Assembly: GCF_900105715.1 (NCBI RefSeq)
Contig: NZ_FNRY01000001.1
Location: 2,418,001 to 2,482,000, forward strand
Length of the DNA stretch: 64,000 bases
From: Paramicrobacterium humi
Lineage (GTDB): Bacteria > Actinomycetota > Actinomycetes > Actinomycetales > Microbacteriaceae
Direction of reading: 5' to 3'
Each line of letters starts with the position of its first letter. Within the stretch, counting starts at the first letter, position 1. The position numbers were made by a program, and so were the translations under genes. A model generated the notes under the pieces. The model made no database searches, was not told where the DNA came from, and saw only the letters and a program-made list of their open reading frames with translations. Positions 42,781 to 45,110 of this stretch are shown in pieces.

Positions 42781-42847
42781 CGAACGCCCCGTGCTGATCC
42801 TGCTGCCTCCGTCTGAGACGAAGCGGCAGGGCGGCACGGGGCGTTCG
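42781..42847 (+). repeat. 14-base perfect inverted repeat enclosing the yaaA start
   Basis: CGAACGCCCCGTGC (42781-42794) and GCACGGGGCGTTCG (42834-42847) are exact inverse complements 39 bases apart. The left arm contains the first bases of the yaaA GTG start and the right arm lies in codons 15-19. Inner complementarity (CTGCC with GGCAG) would extend the stem. Confidence 0.75.
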
Positions 42848-43531
42848 CTGTCTCCAGGGACGCTCTCGTTCCCTGCCCTCGACCCTCAACGACGCGCGCT
42901 CGTGGGCGCTGTCGTGGCGCTTGCCGGGGACGCCGACGCCACGATCGCGGCGCTCAAGCTCGGACCCAAGCAGCACGCGGAGGTGGAGACGAACCGGGCG
43001 CTGCGGCGCGCCGCCACGATGCCCGCTATCGATCGCTACACCGGCGTGCTCTTCGACGCGCTCGATGCGCAGAGCCTCAGTACGGCGGAGCGGGCGTTCG
43101 CGGGGCGGCACGTCGCCGTGCACTCGGCGCTGTTCGGGCTCATCGGCGCGCTCGACCCGATTCCCGCCTATCGGCTCTCCCATGACTCCCGCGTTCCCGA
43201 GCTTCCGCTCAAGCGGCACTGGTCGGCGAGCGTGAGCGCGCAGCTCGCCGAGCATGACGGGCTCATCCTCGACTTGCGCTCCGAGGGGTACGCGAAGCTC
43301 GGACCGGCGCCGACCGACGGCCGGGTCCGGTACGTTCGCGTCCTCACCGAAGCGGAGGGTGGCACGCGCCGCGCCCTCAACCACTTCAACAAGAAGGCGA
43401 AGGGCGCATTCAGCCGCGCCCTCATCCAGTCCGGCATCGACTTCTCGGACGTGACGGAACTCCTCGACTGGGCGGCGAGAGGCGGCATCCGGCTCGAGGA
43501 CGCCGACGGTGAACTCGCGCTCATCGTCTGA
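42791..43531 (+). CDS. yaaA: YaaA family peroxide-stress protein (DUF328)
   Basis: The 246-residue protein matches YaaA/UPF0246: the opening LILLPPSETK, then YTGVLFDAL, HSALFGLIGALDPIPAYR and the C-terminal FNKKAKGAFSRAL. In E. coli YaaA limits damage from hydrogen peroxide by lowering free iron, and it has DNA-binding ability; the actinobacterial role is inferred. The GTG start sits inside a strong inverted repeat and has no clear ribosome-binding site, so translation may depend on unfolding. Confidence 0.88.
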   Translation: MLILLPPSETKRQGGTGRSLSPGTLSFPALDPQRRALVGAVVALAGDADATIAALKLGPKQHAEVETNRALRRAATMPAIDRYTGVLFDALDAQSLSTAERAFAGRHVAVHSALFGLIGALDPIPAYRLSHDSRVPELPLKRHWSASVSAQLAEHDGLILDLRSEGYAKLGPAPTDGRVRYVRVLTEAEGGTRRALNHFNKKAKGAFSRALIQSGIDFSDVTELLDWAARGGIRLEDADGELALIV

Positions 43532-43554
43532 GCCGGCTACGCCGCGTAGTCGGC
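43532..43554. terminator. Hairpin at the yaaA / alkyltransferase-like convergent end
   Basis: GCCGGCTACG (43532-43541) pairs with CGTAGTCGGC (43545-43554) around a CCG loop, ten pairs with one wobble. It lies right after the yaaA stop and inside the last codons of the convergent gene, so it could stop transcription from either side. Confidence 0.5.
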
Positions 43555-44046
43555 GCCCTCGTGGTCAAGCAGCCACGCCTTGATGTCCCGCCCGTTCGAG
43601 CCGCTGAAGCCCGTGATGCGGCCGGTGCTCGAGACGACGCGGTGGCTCGGCACGATGATCGGCAGCGGATTCGCCGCCACCGCGCGGCCGATGGCGCGTC
43701 CACCGCGGCTGCCGACGGCCGTGTAGCCGAGGCTCGCGTAGCTCACCACCGCGCCGAACGGCACGAGATCGAGGGCGTTCCACACGGCGAGCTGGAACGC
43801 CGTTCCGGTGAGCGTGAACGGCACGGAGAACTGCGTGCGGTCGCCGACGAAGTACTCGCCCAGCTGCGCGACCGCCTCGTCGATGAGCCCCGTCGTGCGG
43901 CGCGGCAGGTCGTCGTGGGGGAGTGCGCCGTCGTCTTCGATGGCGATGCCGGTCAGCGACTCGCCGTCGCTCACGAGCTCGATGCGGCCGATAGGGGTGG
44001 AGACGACGGCGAGGTATTCGGGAATGTCGAGGAGAGTCTGCGTCAT
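43537..44046 (-). CDS. Alkylguanine-DNA alkyltransferase homologue lacking the catalytic cysteine (ATL-like)
   Basis: The 169-residue protein has the full Ogt/AGT layout: an N-terminal domain and a C-terminal DNA-binding domain with the helix-turn-helix, the tyrosine in VVSYASLGY, the arginine finger region GGRAIGRAVAANP with the hinge asparagine and the C-terminal glutamate in DHEG. The active-site motif, normally PCHRV, reads PSHRV: Ser134 is encoded by AGC (43647-43645), one base away from TGC. Repair by alkyl transfer to cysteine should therefore be impossible. Alkyltransferase-like proteins, with Trp or Ala at this site, bind O6-alkylguanine and flag it for nucleotide excision repair; this protein may do the same. 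Confidence 0.85.
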   Translation of the reverse strand: MTQTLLDIPEYLAVVSTPIGRIELVSDGESLTGIAIEDDGALPHDDLPRRTTGLIDEAVAQLGEYFVGDRTQFSVPFTLTGTAFQLAVWNALDLVPFGAVVSYASLGYTAVGSRGGRAIGRAVAANPLPIIVPSHRVVSSTGRITGFSGSNGRDIKAWLLDHEGADYAA

Positions 44047-44135
44047 GACGCGAGGCTAGGGGCGCTCCGTCGCGACCTCAGCGCGGAACGCGAGTCGGTG
44101 CATAACTCTGTCCGCTCCGGGCCTGTGAACGACGA

Positions 44136-44141
44136 TAACGT
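44136..44141 (+). promoter_or_regulatory. -10 element TAACGT, leaderless promoter of the second aldo/keto reductase
   Basis: TAACGT is followed by six bases and the ATG at 44148, which favours that start over the ATG at 44157. Confidence 0.45.
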
Positions 44142-44147
44142 GGGGGC

Positions 44148-45110
44148 ATGCGTGAAATGAGCTATCGACCCCTCGGAACCTCCGGCCTCATGGTGTCCGC
44201 CACGGGTCTGGGGTGCAACAACTTCGGCCGCTCCGGAACCGTGACGGAGGACCAGTCCGGCACCGACGCCGTCATCGGCGCGGCTCTCGACGCCGGCATC
44301 ACGTTCTTCGACACGGCCGACATGTACGGCAAGCACCCCGGCTTGAGCGAGACGCTCATGGGCAACGCGCTGAGGGGCAAGCGCGACGACGTCGTGCTCG
44401 CGACGAAGTTCGGCCACAGCGGCGCCGACGTCGGCATCGCAGGGTGGGGCGCGAAGGGATCGCGCCGCTACGTGCGACTCGCCGTGGAGGCGTCGCTTCG
44501 GCGGCTGCAGACCGACTGGATCGACCTCTACCAGCTGCACACGCCCGACGACGTGACGCCGATCGAAGAGACGCTCGCGGCCCTCGACGAGCTCATCGTC
44601 GAAGGCAAGGTCCGCTACATCGGCCACTCGAACCTGTCCGCGTGGCAGCTCGTGGAAGCCGAGTTCACGGCACGGCTGCACGAGCACCCGCGGTTCATCT
44701 CCGCGCAGAATCAGTACAGCCTCATCGTGCGCGACGCCGAGCGGGACGTCCTTCCCGCCGCGAACCGCTTCGGAGTGGGCTTCCTGCCGTACTTCCCGCT
44801 GCATAACGGCCTGCTCACCGGCAAGTTCACACGGTCAGGCGGGCCGGACGACTCGCGAATCATGCGGCAACGCCGGCACATCATCGACGACGCGCCATGG
44901 GATGCGCTCGAGGCGTACCGCGCGTTCTGCGAGGAGCGCGGCATCAGCATGCTGCAGGCGACGTTCGGCTGGCTCCTCGCGCAGCCGGCGCTCGCGAGCG
45001 TCATCGCGGGGGCGACGAGCCCCGAGCAGGTGAGACAGAACGCGGATGCCGCGACGGCATGGCAGCCGAGTGCCGATGAGGTTCGCGCGATCAGCGAGAT
45101 CTTCGACTAG
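44148..45110 (+). CDS. Aldo/keto reductase (YhdN/IolS type)
   Basis: The 320-residue enzyme is an NADPH-dependent reductase with catalytic residues D55 and Y60 (FFDTADMYG), K87 (VLATKFGH) and a histidine in YQLHTPDD. The C-terminal IAGATSPEQVRQNADA is the family's cofactor-binding ending. It is unlike the aldo/keto reductase at 608 and belongs to a different subgroup. Its stop lies five bases before the -35 element of the TetR gene, so the regulator does not obviously control it. Confidence 0.9.
   Translation: MREMSYRPLGTSGLMVSATGLGCNNFGRSGTVTEDQSGTDAVIGAALDAGITFFDTADMYGKHPGLSETLMGNALRGKRDDVVLATKFGHSGADVGIAGWGAKGSRRYVRLAVEASLRRLQTDWIDLYQLHTPDDVTPIEETLAALDELIVEGKVRYIGHSNLSAWQLVEAEFTARLHEHPRFISAQNQYSLIVRDAERDVLPAANRFGVGFLPYFPLHNGLLTGKFTRSGGPDDSRIMRQRRHIIDDAPWDALEAYRAFCEERGISMLQATFGWLLAQPALASVIAGATSPEQVRQNADAATAWQPSADEVRAISEIFD

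Follow-up and report, generated by a model that had tools for sequence, protein, structure and literature searches.

The window, by which we mean the whole 64,000-nucleotide stretch of Paramicrobacterium humi DNA analysed here, encodes on its minus strand (positions 43537-44046) a 169-residue, two-domain homologue of the O6-alkylguanine-DNA alkyltransferases (AGT/Ogt) with serine at the position of the catalytic cysteine. A sequence-only reading had called the replacement from the PSHRV motif and an AGC codon for Ser134 at 43647-43645, and both were read as claimed in the 169-aa open reading frame. The motif in full is IVPSHRVV, with PSHR replacing PCHR, and the corresponding segment of the frame is ...ANPLPIIVPSHRVV.... 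The locus contains the following features, in window coordinates:

42791-43531, plus strand: yaaA (PF03883), convergent neighbour outside the system, also found beside Cys orthologues
43537-44046, minus strand: Ser-type two-domain AGT homologue, 169 aa (open reading frame and Pfam)
43552-43800, minus strand: DNA-binding/active-site domain PF01035, residues 83-165 (Pfam)
43558-43560, minus strand: Glu163, catalytic-triad glutamate (human Glu172), in 5/5 Ser proteins and 123/123 Cys orthologues
43645-43647, minus strand: Ser134 codon AGC at the catalytic-Cys position, PSHR for PCHR (read from the sequence)
43669-43671, minus strand: Asn126, hinge asparagine, present in the window protein and gone in 2/5 Ser proteins
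43696-43698, minus strand: Arg117, arginine finger (human Arg128), in 5/5 Ser proteins and 123/123 Cys orthologues
43738-43740, minus strand: Tyr103, base-flipping tyrosine (human Tyr114), in 5/5 Ser proteins and 123/123 Cys orthologues
43813-44010, minus strand: N-terminal ribonuclease-like AGT domain PF02870, residues 13-78, absent from alkyltransferase-like proteins (ATLs) (Pfam)
44053-44058, minus strand: TAGCCT, probable -10 element 6 nt before the ATG of a leaderless mRNA (conservation)
44148-45110, plus strand: aldo/keto reductase (PF00248), divergent neighbour outside the system, also found beside Cys orthologues

Both AGT domains of the window protein scored above their Pfam cut-offs (PF01035, 81.7 bits against a cut-off of 27; PF02870, 33.7 bits against 21), as they did in all five Ser proteins described below, where PF02870 reached 29.8 to 35.0 bits. 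The protein also falls in the NCBIfam ogt superfamily (TIGR00589, 78.4 bits; cut-off, 46.4). Family models label the gene methylated-DNA--[protein]-cysteine S-methyltransferase, which for the window protein is probably wrong. His135 is present beside Tyr103, Arg117, Asn126, and Glu163. A two-domain AGT fold is predicted by an AlphaFold2 model (mean pLDDT of 92.9 from a 38-row alignment), which aligned with the M. tuberculosis OGT-DNA structure 4wx9_A over 154 columns (TMq, 0.81; rmsd, 2.5) and with the S. tokodaii C120S complex 7e1p at a TMq of 0.75; only 83 columns could be aligned with the S. pombe ATL 3gva. By sequence, too, the nearest solved structures were M. tuberculosis OGT chains.

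The observation is stronger than first claimed, in that the serine is genus-wide, ancestral, and conserved. Ser was found at the syntenic gene in all five genomes examined of the window's genus (codons AGC in three and AGT in two), in proteins sharing 63.5 to 91.7% pairwise identity, and hence does not represent a single-strain mutation. Across the family, 249 genomes were searched and 155 gave a match at E <= 1e-28, 5 of which belonged to the window's genus; among the remaining 150, the best-scoring 123 loci were read, and every one of these orthologues from other genera has Cys (79 PCHR and 44 GCHR motifs, with 106 TGC and 17 TGT codons). More distant AGTs, retrieved with a single-protein query against named genomes, were PCHR in 80 of 80 cases (the best 80 of 107). 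As a separate observation, the GCHR orthologues (e.g., L010, L012, and L024), in which Gly replaces the Pro preceding the catalytic Cys, are scattered over the tree.

A tree was built from 62 proteins after masking the acceptor column: the 5 Ser proteins, 10 paralogues, and a set of 47 drawn from the 123 Cys orthologues at one per genus. In it, the PSHR homologues formed one clade (support, 100/99) that requires one change and has a stem length of 0.58. The chromosomal setting is shared as well. The aldo/keto reductase gene lies divergently upstream in 5/5 Ser genomes and 72/123 Cys orthologues, and yaaA lies convergently downstream in 5/5 and 105/123, respectively, the stretches examined around the Cys orthologues often covering only 1.5 to 2.5 kb a side; of the 18 Cys orthologues without yaaA, 4 lie in short stretches and for 14 the gene was not found within 1.5 to 2.5 kb. 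Tree and synteny together show that the Ser gene descends from a Cys AGT at this same site, the Cys having been exchanged within the ancestral gene without a change of locus. That ancestor, a chromosomal AGT with two domains and yaaA as its neighbour, would have lost its acceptor Cys through a TGY-to-AGY change, a single transversion, before the sampled species of the genus diverged.

This distribution also removes a connection suggested earlier between the Ser form and yaaA, an oxidative stress gene, since yaaA accompanies most Cys orthologues too; as Ser-specific evidence for a functional partner, yaaA was rejected. The two genes are convergent and thus do not form one operon. They are separated by 5 bases in the window, versus a median of 700 bases between match edges at the Cys orthologues.

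Upstream of the gene, a TANNNT element 5 to 8 nt before the start was found in 5/5 Ser genes and 115/123 Cys orthologues, a count somewhat inflated for the latter by allowing several candidate starts per gene, compared with a background of 125 of 5,676 ATGs (2.2%) across these loci. Its presence across the family orthologues suggests leaderless transcripts. A strict scan of positions 43400-44300 for sigma-70 promoters and terminators found nothing, and the -10 assignment is therefore based on conservation.

The Ser gene coexists with other alkyltransferase homologues. Four PF01035 genes occur in the window's genome, namely L001 and L002 with PCHR, the Ser gene, and a Trp-type ATL (L004), which has a PWWRVV motif and no PF02870 match. 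Four PF01035 genes are likewise present in each of the other four genomes of the genus, so that PCHR is seen in 10/10 Cys paralogues and the Trp-type ATL motif elsewhere in 5/5 genomes with a Ser protein. Loss of transfer in the Ser protein would be tolerable because these five genomes each retain two Cys AGTs. A UvrA gene was identified in 5/5 genus genomes. Two further observations were made on gene content: each of the five genomes has, besides full UvrA, a second UvrA-like open frame of approximately 800 to 860 aa (e.g., G000:C1:3021423-3023690), and some relatives (L313, L314, L315, and L316) carry two Cys AGT genes approximately 1 kb apart on one strand.

In our best explanation, the Ser protein descends from a suicide repair enzyme and now acts as a lesion sensor, a reading to which we give a probability of roughly 0.55 based on its sequence and on analogy with characterized proteins. 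Cys-to-Ser laboratory mutants of other AGTs bind without transfer, and for that reason the natural Ser protein should bind without repairing: human C145S has no detectable alkyl transfer (PMC4150771), and S. tokodaii C120S soaked with O6-methyl-dG held the nucleoside in its pocket with the methyl untransferred (PMC8647212). The Ser protein would still scan DNA, Tyr103 and Arg117 would flip O6-alkylguanine and seat the base in the pocket, and Ser134 would take no alkyl group, leaving the protein bound and unconsumed. The bound complex may then mark the lesion for nucleotide excision repair, for which the UvrA gene is present, or, alternatively, collect lesions on which the Cys paralogues act poorly. 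For the step after binding, passing the lesion on to excision repair is favoured by analogy with ATLs, which contact UvrA and UvrC (PMC10779285, section 3.5); the partner in this step is speculative.

Conservation among the five Ser proteins bears on the lesion sensor reading in both directions. Tyr103, Arg117, Pro133, His135, Arg136, Lys156, and Glu163 are unchanged in 5/5, which favours a sensor, as do the retained -10 element and the sequence constraint described below. Of the retained residues listed in the sequence-only reading, the tyrosine, arginine, and glutamate therefore stand as general traits of the Ser proteins; the hinge asparagine stands for the window protein but not as a general trait, since Asn126 is kept in 3/5 (the other two have Ala and Thr) versus 123/123 Cys orthologues. 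Together with loop residue 148, which varies among Ser proteins (S/T/A), the loss of the hinge Asn in two of five could indicate relaxed constraint on the pocket and would speak against a sensor. The long stem branch likewise counts against a sensor, fitting relaxation as well as new function, as do sequence identities that fall a little short of the Cys paralogue values. Where a Trp-type ATL is already present, another sensor may be superfluous, and by analogy the lesion binding of human AGT, which is far weaker than that of ATLs (low micromolar versus nanomolar; PMC10779285), also weighs against this role. Eight of nine clade-specific changes fell in residues 82-165, an enrichment against all residues (P = 0.016) that was not significant against 59 well-conserved columns (P = 0.09).

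Among the alternatives, the one that survives best, although we regard it as unlikely, is that the Ser protein retains some ancestral Ogt function that needs no alkyl transfer, for instance coating DNA cooperatively or contacting another protein, and that lesion recognition is incidental. Such a function would suit the conserved fold and DNA-binding residues, the variation in hinge and loop residues among the Ser proteins, and the mostly constant locus of the orthologues across the family. However, the lesion-pocket residues Tyr103, Arg117, His135, and Glu163 are retained without exception, and the His and Glu would be of little use in plain coating. Somewhat less likely again is shielding, in which the Ser protein would hold O6-alkylguanine and delay other repair or the Cys paralogues, thereby tuning tolerance or mutation; this would follow from binding without transfer and is compatible with the coexistence of two Cys AGTs in each of the five genomes, but a cost is expected.

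A slightly weaker candidate than shielding is slow decay, according to which two Cys AGTs make the Ser gene redundant and it is being lost. The long stem, the missing hinge Asn in two of five proteins, and the redundancy itself would agree with this. Against it, the reading frame is intact in 5/5 Ser genes, the -10 element is kept in 5/5, and PSHR itself is invariant. In addition, the window protein is 63.5 to 65.1% identical to its four congeners, close to the values for the two Cys paralogues (65.3 to 67.6% and 64.1 to 67.7%), and the Ser protein thus appears to evolve at about the same pace as the genus's two Cys AGT paralogues, perhaps slightly faster. For the closest Ser pair (G002-G004; 91.7% identical), NG86 dN/dS was 0.055, whereas the two Cys paralogues in these genomes gave 0.138 and 0.145; the ratios are rough given a dS of 0.90 in this pair and of 0.83 to 3.85 over ten Ser pairs, with YN00 giving no estimate in 24/30 pairs. 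A decaying pseudogene is not favoured on these grounds.

It is very improbable that Ser134 acts as a weak alkyl acceptor or that damage is reversed by other chemistry: the nucleophile-activating His-Glu pair is kept in 5/5 proteins, as such activity would require, but the human and S. tokodaii Ser mutants described above show no detectable transfer and a methyl left on the base, respectively. A sequencing or assembly error, although TGY and AGY lie one transversion apart, is already refuted by the same residue in five separate genomes of the divergence given above.

Loss of the acceptor Cys is not confined to the Ser clade; a second genus in which a Cys-less AGT is fixed adds support to the sensor reading. 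An order-level search gave a match at E <= 1e-24 in 96/396 genomes, and the 67 loci read, 4 of them repeating genes already counted, comprised 54 PCHR, 11 GCHR, and 2 PGHR motifs, with both PGHR proteins, in which Gly replaces the catalytic Cys, coming from one genus of another family. Within that genus, a PGHR protein was found in 20/20 genomes searched, plus G546 (loci L311, L312, L320-L330, L333, L334, L336-L339, L347, and L350), and a PCHR paralogue was identified in each of the 12 of these 20 genomes in which the paralogue was read. PF01035 passes its cut-off in 20/20 PGHR proteins and PF02870 in 4/20; a further 12 have a sub-threshold PF02870 match, and the remaining 4 have none. A description of these proteins as plainly two-domain was accordingly not borne out; judging from these matches, their N-terminal region is present but diverged.

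The Ser and Gly clades are separate in the tree (Ser, 100/99; Gly, 100/98-99) and require two changes, and an AU test against joining them was borderline (p = 0.0503; lnL difference, 42.9). From their sequences, the Gly loss was probably independent of the Ser loss. We tentatively propose, at somewhat less than even odds, that AGTs with an N-terminal domain repeatedly became non-repairing lesion sensors in this order, by at least one Cys-to-Ser and one Cys-to-Gly replacement, each beside Cys AGTs. If true, these proteins would form a class of damage sensor that has gone unrecognised and that arose from AGTs along a different path than the classical ATLs.

Genera that drop the acceptor Cys and keep the rest of the protein provide a natural experiment in the conversion of a suicide repair enzyme into a sensor, and make it possible to ask if losing the nucleophile is enough for the ATL strategy or if the special architecture of ATLs is also required. 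An ATL-like role has so far been described mainly for shorter proteins, whereas the window protein is full length. Descriptions of PSHR or PGHR alkyltransferases, or of actinobacterial alkyltransferase-like proteins, were not found in the open-access papers searched, and an earlier description in a subscription paper is possible. The acceptor Cys has been described as universal in AGTs (review PMC10779285); the window protein departs from this as a natural Cys-to-Ser two-domain AGT.

Compared with known systems, the window protein is nearest to the two-domain AGT/Ogt proteins, such as M. tuberculosis OGT (4wx9), its closest solved structure by both sequence and fold, and human MGMT, with which it shares the domains, fold, flipping Tyr, Arg finger, His, and Glu, differing in having Ser where these have the acceptor Cys. 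E. coli ATL and S. pombe Atl1 are likewise Cys-less with the flipping Tyr and Arg finger, and the window protein is predicted to be non-transferring like them. T. thermophilus TTHA1564 has Ala at the acceptor site. It is also a bacterial AGT homologue annotated as an ATL, and an interaction with a nucleotide excision repair protein is stated in the title of Morita 2008 (via PMC7216122). ATLs, however, have neither N-terminal domain nor Asn hinge, and Trp usually occupies their Cys site (PMC10779285, section 3.5); their tight binding is owed to an extended N-terminal helix and a C-terminal extension loop, both in contact with DNA (PMC10779285); the window-type Ser proteins have the N-terminal domain in 5/5 cases, and Asn126 is present in the window protein and in 3/5 overall. 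Because of this domain and hinge, we do not file the window protein as an ATL. Of the separate ATL subgroup proposed in the sequence-only reading, the separate Ser clade is borne out and an ATL-like role is the most likely one, while ATL membership is not supported for proteins that have this domain, derive in place from a Cys AGT, and occur in genomes with a Trp-type ATL elsewhere. Laboratory equivalents are human C145S (1t38) and S. tokodaii C120S (7csm and 7e1p), which carry the same Cys-to-Ser replacement in a two-domain AGT and bind without transfer; these are engineered, whereas the Ser of the window protein is natural, fixed in the genus, and accompanied by further substitutions. Judged by its sequence, the window protein is a Cys-less AGT that probably works like an ATL and is not a member of the ATL group.
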